NCBI GenBank assembly: GCA_030601865.1
Contig: JAUWAW010000001.1
Location: 1 to 46,432 of the forward strand
DNA length: 46,432 nt
Source: Candidatus Nealsoniibacteriota bacterium
Lineage (GTDB): Bacteria; Patescibacteriota; Minisyncoccia; Minisyncoccales; JAUWAW01
Direction: 5' to 3'
Part shown: positions 29,689 to 37,719 of the stretch, one piece after another
Numbering within the stretch: the stretch's first letter is position 1
Layout of the letters: the number at the start of each line of letters is the position of its first letter
Program-made: the position numbers and the translations under genes
The notes under the pieces: model-generated
Told to the model about the DNA's origin: nothing
Databases searched by the model: none
The model's input: the letters and a program-made list of their open reading frames with translations, nothing else

Positions 29689-29776
29689 TATTAATAGTAT
29701 ACAACCACCCAATAGATTTTTCAAGCAAATTATGTTAAAAGTATCCAAACCACGAGCTATTTTATTTATAAAAAAG

Positions 29777-29876
29777 TGGCGTTTACTGCAAAAAGTTAGA
29801 ACTTTCTACGAACAAAATCCTGGCACTGGGAATTAGCCGCGCCTTCGGCGCGGCATAACTCGCGGCGTCGTTGCCC
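29777..29876. repeat. 100-bp inverted repeat, left copy (IR-L) bounding the defence cargo
   Basis: Exact reverse complement of 34041-34140, checked base by base; contains hairpin gccgcgcc-ttc-ggcgcggc. Confidence 0.97.
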
Positions 29877-29887
29877 CACCTGCTCTG

Positions 29888-30496
29888 TTACTTTTGACGA
29901 TGCATAAAAAGCACATAAAGAATAATCGATATCAAAACACAAGTTGCTATCGCCGTGTTAAGTACTGCAAGTAAAGAAAATCTAGGAAAAGAAATTACCA
30001 GTTCGCTTACAATCTTTGCTAAAACAATAATTGCTAAAACAAAAGGAAAAACTATCATGTAGAGCGCCCATACCCAATTTGAAAATTTTGGGTATTTTTT
30101 CAAGTAGGACTCACCTTCTCTAGTGAAAGATATGCCCTTGTCATAATGCTCAGATAATTCCTTTTCAATTCTGTGTATGTACACATATTGTCGTTCAATA
30201 TAAACAACGGTTTGCGCATACCGTATTATTGTGAACAACAATGCCAGCCAAATAATGCTCCCAAGGAATTCAGCACCAATGGGCACGGCAATCCCAAACT
30301 CTCGCATGGTTATCTGGGAAAAAGTTGTAAGAGTATCTGCGGGCCAAAAGGTGTATAAAACTAAAATCCCTAAAACCAAAAAGACCAAAAGCGTCAACTT
30401 GTCACGAAGCACTATAGATCCTTTAATATTCGAAAAGGTGTCCCTGTAATGCTCATGCAATGCTTGAAACTTAATATCATCAGAAACTTCAATCAT
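29888..30496 (-). CDS. Four-TM protein, candidate membrane effector paired with the TIR-like protein
   Basis: TMs at LTLLVFLVLGILVLY, LGSIIWLALLFTII, WVWALYMIVFPFVLAIIVL, LNTAIATCVLISIILYVLF; starts 2 nt from the end of the TIR-like gene. Confidence 0.6.
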   Translation of the reverse strand: MIEVSDDIKFQALHEHYRDTFSNIKGSIVLRDKLTLLVFLVLGILVLYTFWPADTLTTFSQITMREFGIAVPIGAEFLGSIIWLALLFTIIRYAQTVVYIERQYVYIHRIEKELSEHYDKGISFTREGESYLKKYPKFSNWVWALYMIVFPFVLAIIVLAKIVSELVISFPRFSLLAVLNTAIATCVLISIILYVLFMHRQK

Positions 30497-30497
30497 A

Positions 30498-30941
30498 TCA
30501 GTTTTGAGGAGCGCGATTTAACACATCAATAATATTGCTCTCAGTATACCCTTCGACAAGGGCATATTTTCCTTCAGACATCTCCTCGGGAAGCGAGTAA
30601 TTTTTGTCCAGCTTTACAGCGGCAAGCATATTTCCATCCTCAATGCTTTTTGCTATCTCAAAATTAATCCAATTCCTGAACCCAATCAACTCGTAATCCT
30701 CGTGTCTTTTGTTTGCTTCTTCTCCAACAATTACAAGCGTATGCGTAGCCTCCCTAATCTTCTTCCTAAGGCCAGCTTTAATTGGGCCAATATTTTCACT
30801 ATTAATCTCAGTAGGAGTCTTATCGCTGAAAACGAAATCAAAATCATCATTTGCATCCCATGCCTCCAAAAGATATTTGTAATGTTTATCGTTCTCGTAG
30901 TCGAAGCTTACGAAAACTTCCTTTTTATTTGCCATAATCAT
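30498..30941 (-). CDS. TIR-like domain protein (DUF1863/MTH538-like, ThsB-related)
   Basis: EVFVSFDYENDKHYKYLLEAWDANDDFDFVFSDKTP; IREATHTLVIVGE; GFRNWINFEIAKSIEDGNMLAAVKL. Confidence 0.8.
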   Translation of the reverse strand: MIMANKKEVFVSFDYENDKHYKYLLEAWDANDDFDFVFSDKTPTEINSENIGPIKAGLRKKIREATHTLVIVGEEANKRHEDYELIGFRNWINFEIAKSIEDGNMLAAVKLDKNYSLPEEMSEGKYALVEGYTESNIIDVLNRAPQN

Positions 30942-30959
30942 TATAATGATTAATTAACA
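30942..30959. promoter_or_regulatory. 18-bp perfect palindrome at the start of the TIR-like gene, putative operator
   Basis: taatcattataatgatta. Confidence 0.5.
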
Positions 30960-31068
30960 ATTGTGGATAACTCGACCTTGACGGCATCTTTTGATAGCCG
31001 TTATAATAAAGTATAATCGAAGATAAATAGAAGGTCAAGTCCTGCTATCCACAGTCTCCAATACCAAT

Positions 31069-31665
31069 ATGTTAACAAAAAGACAAAAACAAGTTTTAGA
31101 TTTTGTTAGGTCTTTTTCAAAAAAGCATGGCTATGCCCCTTCTTTGGAAGAGATCAAAGAATGCCTTGGGCTTTCCTCTATATCTACAGCTCATTTCCAC
31201 ATTTCAAACCTGAAAAAATTAGGATTAATCAGAAAAATTAAAAATGGACCAAGGACGATAGAGATAAAAAAGAAGAAATCCAATCTATCAAGTATTCCTC
31301 TGTTGGGGACTATTTCCGCTGGCGGCCCTATTGAAGCAATAAGAGATCCAAAAAGATTAAAGGTGCCTCGCAATATGCTCGCAAAAAGTGGAAGGCACTA
31401 TGCTCTGAAAGTTCAAGGAACAAGTATGATTGAAGAAGGAATCTCTGATGGAGACATAATAATTGTTCGCGAACAACCCATTGTAGAAAATGGAGAAAAA
31501 GCAGTTGCTTACCTCCCCGACAAAAATCAAGTAACCCTAAAACGTATATTCAAGGAGAAAAATCGTATCAAACTTCAGCCCGCTAATAAAACAATGCAAC
31601 CGTTCTATGAAAAAAATGTTGAAATACAAGGGAAGGTTGTTGGGGTCTTAAGAAAAGAAGTTTAG
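31069..31665 (+). CDS. lexA: LexA-type repressor (wHTH + S24 peptidase)
   Basis: LTKRQKQVLDFVRSFSKKHGYAPSLEEI; A-G cleavage site ISAGGPIEA; catalytic Ser in GTSMIEEGI; Lys in NGEKAVAYL. Confidence 0.92.
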   Translation: MLTKRQKQVLDFVRSFSKKHGYAPSLEEIKECLGLSSISTAHFHISNLKKLGLIRKIKNGPRTIEIKKKKSNLSSIPLLGTISAGGPIEAIRDPKRLKVPRNMLAKSGRHYALKVQGTSMIEEGISDGDIIIVREQPIVENGEKAVAYLPDKNQVTLKRIFKEKNRIKLQPANKTMQPFYEKNVEIQGKVVGVLRKEV

Positions 31666-31712
31666 TTATTTTGCACGCTTGTTATACCATATATTCTATA
31701 GTTGGTGATGCT

Positions 31713-32729
31713 ATGAAAACCGATAACTACAAAAACGGAAAGATTAAAATCCAGCATGGTGATGCCATGGATTTTTATGATTTATGGGAAAGTCCGGTTG
31801 TGATAATTTCTGATGGTCCTTATGGCATTGGTGGGTTTCCTGGCGATCCTCCTACTCACGAAAAACTAGCGGAGTGGTATGAACCTCACATAAAAAAGTG
31901 GTCGGAAAAAGCTACCCCACAAACAACTCTATGGTTTTGGAATACTGAAGTTGGATGGGCGACTGTTCATCCAGTTCTCGTTAAACATGGATGGAGATAC
32001 CGCACATGTCATATTTGGGATAAAGGACTTGCACACATTGCTGGAAATGTAAATGGAAAAAGTATCAGGAAGCTACCTGTGGTGACAGAAGCATGTGTAC
32101 AATATGTAAAAGAGCCGCAGTTCGACATAGATGGTCATAAACTATCAACAAAAGAATGGCTCCGCCATGAGTGGAAAAGAAGCGGCATGCCATTTTCGAA
32201 AACGAATGAAGTATGTGACGTAAAAGATGCCGCAACTAGAAAATACTTCACACTTTCCCACCTTTGGTATTTTCCTCCCGCAGAGGCGTTTGAAAAACTA
32301 CAAAGATATGCTAATAGGCATGGAGAAAAATCGGGCAAACCATATTTTTCAATTAATGCAAAAAAGCCAATTACAAGAAAAGAGTGGGCAGGGCTTAGAG
32401 CAAAATTCAATCACGAACATGGAATTACCAATGTTTGGAGAGAGCCGTCCGTAAATGGAAAAGAGAGAATTAAAAATGGAATGAAATCAGTTCATCTTAA
32501 TCAAAAACCACTAAAGTTGATGCATTTAATTATCCGTGCATCTTCGGATGAAAATAATCTCGTGTGGGAACCGTTTGGTGGACTATGTAGTGGTGTCTTG
32601 GCCGCTATGCAACTAAATCGCCACGGAGTGGCAAGTGAGATAGATAAAAACATTTTCGAGCATGCCATGAATCGCTTTGAGAATTACTCGAAAACCTCTA
32701 AATTATCTCAGCAATCATCTGTTCAATAA
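31713..32729 (+). CDS. Site-specific DNA methyltransferase (N6-A/N4-C type, beta-like motif order)
   Basis: Catalytic motif SDGPYG; C-terminal SAM motif NLVWEPFGGLCSG; HLNQKPLKLMHLIIRASS. Confidence 0.85.
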   Translation: MKTDNYKNGKIKIQHGDAMDFYDLWESPVVIISDGPYGIGGFPGDPPTHEKLAEWYEPHIKKWSEKATPQTTLWFWNTEVGWATVHPVLVKHGWRYRTCHIWDKGLAHIAGNVNGKSIRKLPVVTEACVQYVKEPQFDIDGHKLSTKEWLRHEWKRSGMPFSKTNEVCDVKDAATRKYFTLSHLWYFPPAEAFEKLQRYANRHGEKSGKPYFSINAKKPITRKEWAGLRAKFNHEHGITNVWREPSVNGKERIKNGMKSVHLNQKPLKLMHLIIRASSDENNLVWEPFGGLCSGVLAAMQLNRHGVASEIDKNIFEHAMNRFENYSKTSKLSQQSSVQ

Positions 32730-33573
32730 CTGAATCGTCAGATGTTATGACACGTGCCCATTCACCGATAGTTTTACCATCGACTTTTGTGTGAAGTACA
32801 CGCGCTTTGAATCGCTCGAGATCATCGTGTTCTATCCTGTCAATTTTTGCAAAGTTAGTGTCAAGGCGGTAAGGATAACGACCAAGTAAACTTTTTACTT
32901 TTTGTTGATATTCCACAGTAGGTTGAAATTCCGCTTCATTCTTTCCCCAACTCTTTACTTCTGTCTCTGCCTTTTTAAACTGTATAGGCGTACCTTGAAA
33001 CTTATACCCGTTTGTATTCGTCTGTTGTAAATTCGCAGTACGAGCAGAAGTGTCCTCAGGTTCTAAAACAAGATAATCGGGTGGTCTATGGTAATGTTTA
33101 TCCCGAGCCAGTGCCAGACTTTTCGCAGAACCAATCCATACGTCTATAATCTTTGGTTTTCCATATATTAAAAACTCAGGCAACCAGGCCATAACAGCAA
33201 CATTTGTCTGATCTTTCTCAAAGTGAAGAATGCTATCTTTAAAGCGGGCGGTAATCTCTGTAGCTAACGGAAACCATGCTTTAACTTCAATCCCCGGTGC
33301 AGGCTTAATTGAGCCCCGAAATAAAGCATCTGGGAAGCCTGGATCTTGACGAATCCATTGTCCAAATCCACCCCACTTTACTTTATTAAGTTCTTCAACA
33401 ACAGAAAACTCAATCATGTTACCAAGTAGTGGAGAAATTTTTGAAATAACTTTTGCTAAGTGTCTGGCATATTCCACATTATGAGGCTTTTTAATATCTA
33501 AAACATCAAGATTATGTCCTTTCATTTTTGCCACCTCCTCTGAAGCTTTTTTAAGAATGTCTTTATATGTCAT
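32698..33573 (-). CDS. Putative type II restriction endonuclease, PD-(D/E)xK fold
   Basis: PGFPDALFRG...GIEVKAW (PD...ExK); convergent with the methyltransferase. Confidence 0.68.
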   Translation of the reverse strand: MTYKDILKKASEEVAKMKGHNLDVLDIKKPHNVEYARHLAKVISKISPLLGNMIEFSVVEELNKVKWGGFGQWIRQDPGFPDALFRGSIKPAPGIEVKAWFPLATEITARFKDSILHFEKDQTNVAVMAWLPEFLIYGKPKIIDVWIGSAKSLALARDKHYHRPPDYLVLEPEDTSARTANLQQTNTNGYKFQGTPIQFKKAETEVKSWGKNEAEFQPTVEYQQKVKSLLGRYPYRLDTNFAKIDRIEHDDLERFKARVLHTKVDGKTIGEWARVITSDDSVIEQMIAEII

Positions 33574-33782
33574 AAATCAAACATGTCACTTAAACGCAAC
33601 TTTAGGGCTTTGGCAATTTTACCTATATTGTTTAGAGTGATATTTTTCTCTGCCCTTTCAATCATTCCAATGTAAGTTCGGTGAACGCCTACGCGTTCAG
33701 CCAGCTTTTCCTGAGATAGACCCAACTTTATACGCTCCTTTCTAACTCTGTTACCAAATTTTATCAAGATTTCTTTTTTCAT
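33570..33782 (-). CDS. XRE-family regulator, RM controller (C) protein-like
   Basis: GNRVRKERIKLGLSQEKLAERVGVHRTYIGMIERAEKNITLNNIGKIAKAL; 4-bp overlap with the endonuclease gene. Confidence 0.88.
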   Translation of the reverse strand: MKKEILIKFGNRVRKERIKLGLSQEKLAERVGVHRTYIGMIERAEKNITLNNIGKIAKALKLRLSDMFDL

Positions 33783-34040
33783 ACAACTTATTAACATTAT
33801 AACACTTGCTAACTTTAGTGCTACATACTATAATTAGCATAATTAACTACAAAACTTCAAAAATTTACGGCTTGGCTACGCCAAGCCGTAAGGTCGCGGC
33901 GTGTTTTTTTTGTTCTTCTAAGGAAAAACAAAAAGAGGGCAAAACAGGAAAATTTACCTACATTATTAATTTTTTCGCGGCGGGCAAATTCTTTTAAAAG
34001 GAAAAGTAAATTTCCTGTTTTGCAGCCACAGCGTAGCTGT

Positions 34041-34140
34041 GGCAACGACGCCGCGAGTTATGCCGCGCCGAAGGCGCGGCTAATTCCCAGTGCCAGGATT
34101 TTGTTCGTAGAAAGTTCTAACTTTTTGCAGTAAACGCCAC
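34041..34140. repeat. 100-bp inverted repeat, right copy (IR-R)
   Basis: Reverse complement of 29777-29876. Confidence 0.97.
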
Positions 34141-34180
34141 ATTTCTGTATTTGCCGCCGCGGCCCGCCGCGCGCGGGCGG
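34137..34180. repeat. 44-bp GC-rich inverted repeat, left copy flanking the recombinase
   Basis: Reverse complement of 35663-35706. Confidence 0.95.
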
Positions 34181-34215
34181 TTGAAGACAAGATTTTAATT
34201 GTCGGTGTAATATTT

Positions 34216-35766
34216 ATGAAATACTTTATCTATTGCAGGAAATCAACCGAAAGCGAAGAAAAACAGGCCTTGTCCATAGAGGCCCAGTTGACGGAGTTGC
34301 GCGAATATGCAAAGCGTGAGGGGCTTTATGTTGCCCGTGAATTCACCGAGACCAAGACAGCCAAAGAACCTGGACGGCCTGTTTTTAACCAAATGATGGC
34401 TGAACTTGAACAGGGTGTTGTGGAAGGAATTTTAGCTTGGAACCCTGATAGGTTGGCTCGCAATTCGATTGACGGCGGCAAGGTGATATTCTTAGTGGAC
34501 ACCGGCAAGATAAAGTCGCTAAAATTCCCTACATTCTGGTTTGAGCCGACTCCGCAAGGTAAATTTATGCTTTCGGTTGCTTTCGGACAGGCAAAATATT
34601 ACACCGACAATTTAAGAGAAAACGTTTTGCGTGGAATACGGCAAAAATTGAGACGAGGCGAACTGCCAGCAAAAGCTCCTCTTGGCTATCTCAATGAACC
34701 GCGGTTGCGCACCATAGTCCCCGACCCCAAGGCGTTTCTCAAGGTAAAAAAATGTCTGGAGCTTTTTGCTTTAGGTGAACATGGTTTGACAGCCCTACAA
34801 CGCAAAATGTTTTCTCTGGGCTTGGTTGCTAGAACGGGCAAGTCATTGCACCTTGCAACTATATATGATATTTTAACCAACCCATTTTACTATGGCATGA
34901 TGAAGCATAAAGGAGAAATGTATCAAGGTAGTCATAAGCCAATGATTTCAAAGAAACTTTTTGATAAAATCCAACTGGCGTTGGTCGATAATAGCAAACC
35001 CCGCAAAAAGCGGGATAGGGGCTTTTTGTTTTTACACTTTGCCAAATGCGGTAACTGTGGATATATGATGACAGCCGAGCAACATATCAAAAAGAGCGGC
35101 TTGCGCTTCGTGTATTATAGGTGCACCAAAAAGAGCAAAGTGAAAATCTGCAACCAACACCGCTTTTTGCGGGAAGAAAAGTTTGCCGAACAAGTGAAAC
35201 AATATGTTCAAAAAGTTTCTTTGCCTGATGTATGGCGGAATAGATTCTCGGACAAACTTGCCAACTGGGAGAAAGATGGCCGCCACACGTCAGAACTTTT
35301 CGTTCAAAATCTTAAAGTGAAAATAAGCAAGGTGAAAGCAAAAATGAGCCGCTTGTTAGACGCACACTTGGAGGGGTTGTTGGAGCTTGATGAATTTCAG
35401 GCAAAGAAAAACACCTTGCTTGAGCAGAAGGCGGACTTACAGGGAAAATTAAAAGATTTTGAACAAAAAGGAAATCATTGGGTCGAACTCACCCGTAATT
35501 GGATTTTAGCCAGCAACCAAGCCAAAAATCTCGCTTCAACAGAAAATTTTCATGAAATGAAAAATTTTCTGAAAAAAATCGGGTCGAACCGTGTTATTCA
35601 AGACCAACAGCTTTGTATAACATTCAAAAAGCCTTGGAATTACTTGGCTGAAACGATTTTTTCCGCCCGCGCGCGGCGGGCCGCGGCGGCAAATACAGAA
35701 ATGTGGGCGTGTGTGGATTTGAACCACAGACCTCACGGATGTGAACCGTGCGCTCTGACCACCTGA
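34216..35766 (+). CDS. Large serine recombinase (resolvase domain + Recombinase + zinc ribbon)
   Basis: YCRKSTESEEKQALSIEAQ; GILAWNPDRLARNS; CGNCGYMMTAEQ...YYRCTKK; the C-terminal ~35 aa are translated from the inverted repeat and tRNA. Confidence 0.93.
   Translation: MKYFIYCRKSTESEEKQALSIEAQLTELREYAKREGLYVAREFTETKTAKEPGRPVFNQMMAELEQGVVEGILAWNPDRLARNSIDGGKVIFLVDTGKIKSLKFPTFWFEPTPQGKFMLSVAFGQAKYYTDNLRENVLRGIRQKLRRGELPAKAPLGYLNEPRLRTIVPDPKAFLKVKKCLELFALGEHGLTALQRKMFSLGLVARTGKSLHLATIYDILTNPFYYGMMKHKGEMYQGSHKPMISKKLFDKIQLALVDNSKPRKKRDRGFLFLHFAKCGNCGYMMTAEQHIKKSGLRFVYYRCTKKSKVKICNQHRFLREEKFAEQVKQYVQKVSLPDVWRNRFSDKLANWEKDGRHTSELFVQNLKVKISKVKAKMSRLLDAHLEGLLELDEFQAKKNTLLEQKADLQGKLKDFEQKGNHWVELTRNWILASNQAKNLASTENFHEMKNFLKKIGSNRVIQDQQLCITFKKPWNYLAETIFSARARRAAAANTEMWACVDLNHRPHGCEPCALTT
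35663..35706. repeat. 44-bp GC-rich inverted repeat, right copy ending at tRNA-Val
   Basis: ccgcccgcgcgcggcgggccgcggcggcaaatacagaaatgtgg. Confidence 0.95.
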
Positions 35767-35777
35767 GCTACACGCCC
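35705..35777 (-). tRNA. tRNA-Val (CAC)
   Basis: Cloverleaf gggcgtg...cacgccc; anticodon loop ttcacat; T-loop ttcaaat. Confidence 0.88.
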
Positions 35778-35823: not shown

Positions 35824-37719
35824 ATGCAAGTTTTAGAACTACATTTTAATCCCAAAGCGCAGAAAGGTGTAATCTTTGATACCTATTGCTATGAAGCTGA
35901 AAATATCTATGAGAAGAGATTAGGGAATTTGTATATGGCAGGTCAGCTTTCCAATATAGGAATTCAAAATACTCAGCTTTTAGACAATCTGGCCTCCGTC
36001 ATTAAAGGCAAGTATTATACTCTTTCTGCTCGTTCGCCCGGACAATCTCTCAGAGAAAGCTTAAAAGCGGCCAACAAATTTTTAGCCGATTTGGTAAAGA
36101 AAGGAAATGTTGACTGGCTGGGAAATTTAGATTTTGCTATTCTTGCACTTAAGCAATCTCAATCTAAGAAAAGGACCTTTTTTACTTTTAATTTTACCAA
36201 GGTGGGCAAAATCAAAATTCTCTTAATGAGAGGAGGTACCATGCTGGAAATTGGCAAGGATTTAGAAGCCCAAGACTTAGAACCCTACCCTTTAAAAATC
36301 TTTTTTAATACTGCTTCTGGCAGATTACAGGAGGACGACAGGATTATAGCGGTTACGTCAGAGCTTTTTAAGGAAAAACAAGATTTAATTCAAAAAATGG
36401 CTGCCCTCAAAACCTTTGATGAAAAAGAACTCAAAGAGCTCTTAAAAACCGGCGACGCCCCCAGTCTTTTAGGATTTTGCTTCTTAGCCAATTTGGTTAG
36501 AGAGGCCTCGGATCCTATAGCTTTGACCCTTCAAGAGAAGCCAGAAAGGTTTGTTTGGCTTAACCCGGTTAAATGCTGTGAAGCAGCAATTTCGTCTCTG
36601 GCGAAATTATTTAACCGGGTTAACTCCGCCAAATACCGCTTAGCGGCAATTTCGCTTTTGGCGAAATTATTTGACGGGGTTAAAAAAATTGGGGAACTTC
36701 CAAGGACATTGCTCAGAAGGATACCTTTGCCAAGAATACTTTTCTTTCGGCAGTTTCAAAAACTGCTAAGGAGACCTAAACTTGCCAAGATAAAACTGCC
36801 CAAAATGAAAATGCCTAAAAAAGTAACCTTAATCCCTGTTTTGTGTTTTTTCCTCTTAGTCGGTTTTCTTATTTTTAAAGGAGAGAGAGCGAAATCTCTT
36901 AAAATAGCGCAAGAAATATTAGCAAGAGCAGAATCAAAAATTGTTCAAGCCCAAAGTTTTCTTATTTTAGAAGAAAAAGCAAAAGCTAATCTCCTTTTCC
37001 AAGAAGCTTGGCAAGAAATCCTGCCTCAAGCAAACATCGGAGCTCCTTTAGAAAAAAAAGCGTCTCAAATAAAAACTTCCATTGAGGAAGAACTATCTTT
37101 AATTAATAAATTAGAGGAAATTAAAAGCCCGAAGGTTTTGCCCGATTTTGATTTTGAAAAAGTAAGACTGCCTTCGCCTTATCTATTTGTATTTAGCTTT
37201 TCTCAAAACAGTTTTGCCATCTATGTATTAGATGCAAATTCGGGACAGATTATAAAATATCCTTATACTTTATTTTCGGGCCTCGCCCCCACACCAAAAT
37301 TTTTGGTGTGGGGGCGAGGAGAGCCACAGTTTTGGCTGAAGCCCAAAAACGAGCAAATAGAAAAAGCTCCAGATATTTCCAGAGCTAAATCCATCGCTGT
37401 TGATGGTTCCATCTGGATTTTATTTCAAGACAATTCAATTGGACGTTATCATGCCGGGTTCTATCAAGAAACATTGAAACTTAATCTTTTTCCTGTCTTG
37501 AAAAAACCAACTAAAATCTGGACTTCTCCAGAGCATCAAGAGCTTTATTTATTAGAGCCCAAGCAGAACCGAATAGTTATTTTGAGTAAAGACGGTCAAA
37601 TAATCAAACAATACCAAAGCGAAGCATTTAACAATCTTTTAGATTTTGCTGTTTCTGAAGATAGTAAAACAATCTGGCTGCTTAATGGCTTGAAGGTTTT
37701 CACTTTAACTCAACCGTAG
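35824..37719 (+). CDS. Large hypothetical protein: N-terminal phosphatase-like domain, TM, C-terminal beta-propeller-like region
   Basis: Long [23 protein letters not shown]; repeated IWxL...LYLLE segments near the C-terminus. Confidence 0.6.

Follow-up and report, generated by a model that had tools for sequence, protein, structure and literature searches.

A tRNA-gene-targeting serine integrase element of Patescibacteria with a second, inverted attP and a predicted gene-long DNA fold

The archaeal suicidal integrases of SSV1, pTN3 and pT26-2 have their att site in the integrase gene, which is disrupted when the element integrates into a tRNA gene. These enzymes are tyrosine recombinases that become split into large N and C parts, and they were reported to be exclusive to archaea (PMC8371274). 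The element described here likewise has its att site in the integrase gene; in contrast to the archaeal systems its enzyme is a bacterial serine recombinase which loses a tail of about 18 amino acids, a spare copy of which is retained in the element in inverted orientation.

With the large serine integrases (TP901-1, YokA/SPbeta, CcrB/SCCmec, XisF and DsiB of Dehalococcoides) it shares the catalytic, recombinase and zinc-ribbon domains and the use of attL and attR with a short core. The large serine integrases of phages and genomic islands have as a rule one attP. Our recombinase is distant from its phage and plasmid homologues (about 21-31% identity), and those of their genes that served as controls are unfolded. 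The islands found in ssrA of Dehalococcoides carry a different, CcrB-like module, and the paper describing them does not contain the word "inverted" (PMC3146451).

Recombination sites that can be formed by the pairing of inverted sequences on one strand are also known from the integron attC and from the attP of CTXphi. Those are sites of tyrosine recombinases and their folds have no integrase gene inside, whereas in the present element the arms enclose the integrase gene as their loop, and this gene is itself predicted to be foldable on both strands. The yeast 2-micron plasmid (FLP/FRT) is, like the circle predicted here, split in two by two inverted copies of its recombination site; it is a nuclear plasmid with a tyrosine recombinase and is not known to integrate into tRNA genes. 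Hin/Gin and the shufflon likewise have inverted sites around a segment whose reversal would alter the C-terminus of a protein, but in our case each inverted site is an entire attP, and the segment predicted to invert is the integrase itself.

Boundaries of the element and its second attP

The window is a stretch of 46,432 nucleotides from a Candidatus Nealsoniibacteriota bacterium (contig JAUWAW010000001.1). A preliminary description had noted a serine recombinase gene flanked by its own inverted repeat next to a tRNA-Val gene, had called this arrangement atypical for a serine integrase and had proposed GTGG as a possible crossover or target site. These points stand: the repeat copies at 34137-34180 and 35663-35706 are, as given there, perfect reverse complements of 44 bp, and in the 591-kb genome the 44-mer occurs at these two sites only. 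The left copy indeed shares CCAC (34137-34140) with a second inverted repeat, 29776-29875 and 34041-34140, which is identical over 100 bp and about 96% identical over 117 bp. The 100-bp arm alone, without the 44-mer, is matched at two further loci of the same genome. GTGG is found at both outer limits, on the right at 35703-35706 as described and on the left at 29776-29779 instead of 29777-29780. The target gene, tRNA-Val (CAC), lies on the minus strand (35703-35777 according to ARAGORN) and remains intact after the insertion; its 3' end is overlapped by the right 44-mer, though by 4 bases (ARAGORN) or 3 bases (Rfam) and not by the 2 bp first reported.

The left junction reads ...aaaaaa-GTGG-cgtttactgc and the right junction ...tacagaaat-GTGG-gcgtgtg, entering the tRNA gene. 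Both agree with a crossover at GTGG, which would give a circle with the junction tacagaaat-GTGG-cgtttactgc, that is, of the type TACAGAAATGTGGCGTTTACTGC. Read as its reverse complement, this predicted circle junction matches the middle junction at 34137 exactly, and the integrated copy (29776-35706) therefore holds a complete second attP in inverted orientation, which we call M. By this junction logic the whole integrated element, to which no strand is assigned, comprises 5,927 bp plus one core copy. On the plus strand, attL (29776-29875) starts with the core GTGG (29776-29779) and continues with the cargo-side arm of attP, while attR (35663-35706) is the int-side arm of 44 bp with the core at its end (35703-35706). 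M (34041-34180, minus strand) is composed of the 100-bp cargo-side arm, the core CCAC at 34137-34140 and the 44-bp int-side arm. The two 44-mers are int-side halves, one of attR and one of the second attP; the inverted 100-bp arms flank the cargo segment and the inverted 44-bp arms the integrase segment.

The mobile unit is thus 29776-35706 with ordinary attL and attR at GTGG, and the 44-bp repeats are not its terminal repeats, as had been implied. As expected of an integrative element with a serine integrase, attL and attR with a short core (GTGG at 29776 and 35703) lie beside the integrase at a fixed target; in place of the single attP expected in the excised circle, however, the predicted circle has two inverted copies. 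Boundaries, inverted attP and tail swap (see below) make up an anatomy which, as read from the sequence, is solid. Comparison with an empty tRNA-Val locus had also been proposed. Joined flanks were sought in 147 genomes of the same order and no strict empty site was found; genomes of this order do have the tRNA-Val gene with the same downstream gene and without the integrase, but synteny is limited to this pair and lysS is not adjacent there.

Genes on both strands make up the cargo segment (29888-33797). They encode an unknown protein (29888-30496, minus), a TIR/ThsB-like protein (Thoeris-like TIR protein; 30498-30941, minus), LexA (31069-31665, plus), a DNA methyltransferase (31671-32729, plus), a type II restriction enzyme (32698-33573, minus) and a control protein (33570-33797, minus). 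The cargo of the relatives is varied; judged by eye, that of locus L015 resembles a 7-deazaguanine (queuosine-type) gene set.

The severed integrase tail and the element family

The large serine recombinase gene (int, 34216-35766, plus strand) encodes a protein with PF00239, PF07508 and PF13408 above cut-off, i.e., the Resolvase, Recombinase and zinc-ribbon domains of a large serine recombinase. Its conserved part (34216-35670) is followed by the 44-bp arm and then by a tail derived from the tRNA gene. The attP core falls within the reading frame of int. In the predicted circle Int would end in ...MWRLLQKVRTFYEQNPGTGN / ...ANTEMWRLLQKVRTFYEQNPGTGN before the stop codon, and the Int proteins of relatives in WWCLLEKVRTFYQQNPDAD, WWCLFEKVRTHFEQNPD and others, whereas the integrated int runs into the tRNA gene and has its native tail replaced by tRNA-derived residues. 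The severed tail is also encoded within attL (29780-29836, plus strand, RLLQKVRTFYEQNPGTGN and stop codon) and, on the strand opposite to int, on M (34136 down to 34080, minus strand). As in the suicidal integrases, the att site lies inside the integrase gene, which is disrupted on integration, the tail being present on attP, M and attL and absent from the integrated int; Int has, however, serine recombinase domains and not those of the tyrosine recombinase family.

The tail motif W..L..[KE][VIA]RT[HFY][FY]..NP is present on M in 49 loci. At the end of the integrated int itself we find it essentially only in L076, whose contig starts inside the repeat, and in L062, where int is broken. Variability among the 49 M tails (36 distinct) is highest at the third codon position (0.34 versus 0.24 and 0.12 at the other positions) and R and T are invariant, from which we conclude that the tail evolves as protein. 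In the AlphaFold model of the tail-bearing L076 protein the tail forms a low-confidence helix. A minus-strand mini-integrase encoded in the interval from M to int was considered as well and rejected, since the spare-tail frame has no consistent start codon.

A set with one genome per species yielded 298 relatives of the recombinase on genome contigs, almost all from Patescibacteria, and 75 of the 380 genomes in a sample of the phylum carry the recombinase at E<=1e-100. Regions were taken around 80 of the 298 relatives together with 60 more from the phylum sample, and 145 related loci were assessed. We rejected a phage or virus identity because viral contigs yielded two int matches, both partial, against the 298 in genome contigs, and the tail pattern in none; the cargo lists, inspected by eye, show no structural genes. 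At least 300 bp upstream of int was available in 117 of the 145 loci, of which 101 have the inverted copy (median 124 bp, 99.2% identity) and 16 show no detectable one. The sequence of the copy is specific for each locus and its position equivalent, which rules out chance as the origin of the repeat. Both boundaries could be placed for 57 elements, which are 2.3-9.3 kb long with 0.7-7.6 kb of cargo. On M the stretches homologous to attR and to attL have a median overlap of 4 bp (within -2 to 20 in 43 of 51 loci), and the core shared by attL, attR and M changes with the target (GTGG, GCGG, TGGCTG and others). The targets are tmRNA and 17 tRNA types (Ala, Ser, Val, Leu, Asn, Gln, Pro, Glu, Gly, Lys, Asp, Trp, Ile, Arg, Phe, Met and Thr). 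The same anatomy is seen in the single-contig complete genome CP055308.1 (L009/L136), where the inverted copy measures 124 bp with 100% identity.

To the extent that comparison of sequences establishes it, these elements use a core of about 4 bp to target RNA genes at their 3' end, have attP inside the 3' end of int and carry a second attP with a spare tail inverted upstream of int. No paper on serine integrases in Patescibacteria was found in the open-access literature, and we apparently deal with an undescribed, Patescibacteria-wide family of small mobile elements. In 28 of the 145 loci the contig ends less than 300 bp upstream of int, so these elements break draft assemblies of Patescibacteria. 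In loci L057 and L058 the int segment has extra sequence, and the distance from int to the inverted copy upstream is 5.5 and 1.5 kb, compared with the usual 0.1-0.3 kb.

The integrase gene is directed toward the RNA gene in 114 loci, a number to which tmRNA targets missed by the short search window would add a few, and away from it in two. One of these two has a TGA in int (L049) and the other is cut by the contig end (L063). With two identical attP copies in the circle both orientations would be expected equally often; the observed bias would fit an integrase that is unstable in the chromosome when it keeps its tail.

Predicted folding of the integrase gene

The sequence that separates M from int consists of a run of short patches, up to about 25 nt long, which are exact reverse complements of int and collinear with it. 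Against the int of their own locus these patches reach a mean score of 36.5, against the int of other loci 17.2 and when reversed 7.9. In the window, the int leader (34181-34215, plus strand) contains at 34197-34215 the exact reverse complement of int positions 34594-34612 (19/19). Covariation between leader and int was first tested at the YYTDNL patch, where the near-invariance of either side made for a weak test. Synonymous variation within int is reduced in patches. Synonymous sites are constrained in stems, with the major base at third positions reaching 0.83 versus 0.60.

Within int itself, most loci share exact inverted 10-mers in corresponding positions. When the loci were grouped into three identity classes, 23, 10 and 22 position pairs were common to 20% or more of the loci, and all of them are nested, with no crossing in 253, 45 and 231 comparisons (0/529 overall). 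The genes contain 48, 32 and 36 inverted 10-mers, compared with 2.1-2.8 after synonymous codon shuffling (about 17-fold), and in the shuffled genes no position recurs. RNAalifold applied to 51 codon-aligned int genes gave a dozen stems, 7-17 bp long, in which 81-97% of the pairs are Watson-Crick, a value that fell to 25-41% when the stem partner was slid by 1-3 columns.

A family-wide four-way junction (int numbering 721-731/1257-1267, 733-749/991-1007, 1011-1022/1064-1075 and 1079-1095/1239-1255) is conserved to below 45% identity, whereas the outer stems are lineage-specific. In the window its first stem pairs 34939-34949 with 35471-35481, the second 34950-34964 with 35208-35222, the third 35227-35238 with 35280-35291 (10/12 in this int) and the fourth 35295-35311 with 35455-35471 (15/17). 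Other stems within this int pair 34615-34632 with 34800-34817 (18 bp when the window's strand is folded), 34819-34829 with 35513-35523 and 35000-35013 with 35160-35173 (14/14). Folding of the window's strand over 34137-35706 with DNA parameters yielded a terminal helix formed by the two 44-bp arms (34137-34180 with 35663-35706), the 19-bp leader helix and most of the conserved stems. Eleven of the 12 consensus stems are present in this int with at least two thirds of their pairs, 35324-35335 being out of register.

The fold energy of most members lies far below that of synonymous shuffles on both strands (z about -5 to -42) and is weaker in L007, L172, L176, L074 and L083. For cargo genes, for phage and plasmid serine recombinases and for two other Patescibacteria serine recombinases without the repeat, z is near 0. 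Int, its leader and the two inverted arms have the potential to fold as one nested, nearly strictly Watson-Crick structure, equally on either strand. We know of no other protein-coding gene in which both DNA strands conserve a nested structure over the whole length of the gene.

Alternative explanations and a possible mechanism

An RNA structure should tolerate G·U but not A·C. The internal mispairs of 531 distinct helices of at least 12 bp are, however, G·T in 21 and A·C in 21 cases; the alignment has 131 G·T against 102 A·C mispair cells, and the leader patches with 48 against 43 show no G·T excess. G·U is hence not clearly commoner than A·C in the conserved stems, as it would be in a structured RNA, and the symmetry indicates that what counts is pairing in DNA, or equally in both strands. 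As there is no wobble bias and a search against Rfam matched no family except tRNA, we rejected an RNA structure. By the same counts, and because the minus strand folds equally well, it is quite unlikely that Int synthesis is limited by a self-folding int mRNA whose leader binds the coding region and in which the inverted attP is no more than the 5' part of the structure, even though the plus strand folds strongly and the leader does pair with int.

That the repeats are an assembly artefact or a generic sequence such as a shared terminator, an outcome which the preliminary description had named as fatal to its proposal, might be suggested by the many draft contigs that end at them (the 28 loci mentioned above); the anatomy is nevertheless present in single-contig genomes such as CP055308.1, the 44-mer occurs only here in its genome and its equivalents in 101 of 117 loci are locus-specific, so that this possibility is refuted and its probability negligible. 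The perfect 44-bp inverted repeat around int also invites the reading, implied at the outset, of a serine-recombinase transposon with terminal inverted repeats. This is very improbable: the ends of the element, 29776 and 35703, carry a direct 4-bp core, on the left the inverted repeat is internal, and the 57 bounded relatives, which have cargo beyond the inverted repeat and the second arm as boundary, refute it. More can be said for a mere DNA inversion switch, in which the inverted attP serves to let Int or homologous recombination flip the int segment between a tRNA-tailed and a full-tailed integrase and the fold is a by-product or has another use. Arms within a locus are 99% identical, both orientations exist (114 versus 2) and the spare tail is conserved as protein. 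The rarity of the opposite orientation and the general knowledge that serine integrases do not normally recombine identical attP sites speak against a switch, which also leaves the nested structure inside int unaccounted for, and we regard it as rather unlikely.

On balance we think it probable that this is a self-severing, tRNA-targeting serine integrase element with a spare inverted attP and tail and a fold for a single-strand stage. We infer the purpose of tail swap, spare tail and fold as follows. Integration, which severs the Int tail, would leave Int inactive or changed in direction and would in this way be self-limiting, the state with int pointing toward the tRNA gene being the stable one. 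Recombination between the inverted arms of M and attR could turn the int segment and rejoin int with the spare tail. The fold may serve a single-stranded DNA stage, either a strand imported by competence or exposure at the replication fork; the strand symmetry fits uptake of either strand as well as fork exposure of either strand, and the two are indistinguishable here. On a single strand derived from the integrated element, M could pair with the left arm and the int-side arm, thereby re-forming a double-stranded attP, and this pairing would bring both ends of the element together on one continuous strand, splint-like, for circularisation. Natural transformation occurs in Saccharibacteria, and conservation of com genes extends throughout the CPR (PMC10633639), with ComEC found in 86% of CPR genomes (PMC6744442). 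We put forward only tentatively, as a possibility short of even chances, that the element travels as folded single-stranded DNA with the integrase coding sequence as scaffold, that the terminal helix re-creates attP and splints the ends, and that integration severs the tail and thus locks the element. To our knowledge serine integrases neither normally recombine attP with attP nor act on single strands, and the role of the second attP is therefore unexplained by known enzymology.

The element would be a bacterial serine-recombinase counterpart of the self-breaking integrases with a built-in spare part. Its family is common (75/380 sampled genomes) and has varied cargo that includes restriction and methylation enzymes. 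How genes enter Patescibacteria, organisms with natural competence that are rarely grown in culture, becomes a directly testable question, and the family could supply small tRNA-targeting integrases as tools.

The genome of the window contains a second family member (L007, G000:C14:1-3200) with 51% identity and a 91-bp perfect inverted copy, which adjoins tRNA-Ser. Two orphan attP/attL-like pieces consisting of tail and core without int (L004, G000:C2:100533-100583; L005, G000:C13:23503-23574) have tRNA-Ala genes nearby and are perhaps remnants or non-autonomous elements. At 36557-36676 in the window, within the open reading frame 35824-37719, there is a 60-nt tandem duplication (73% identical).
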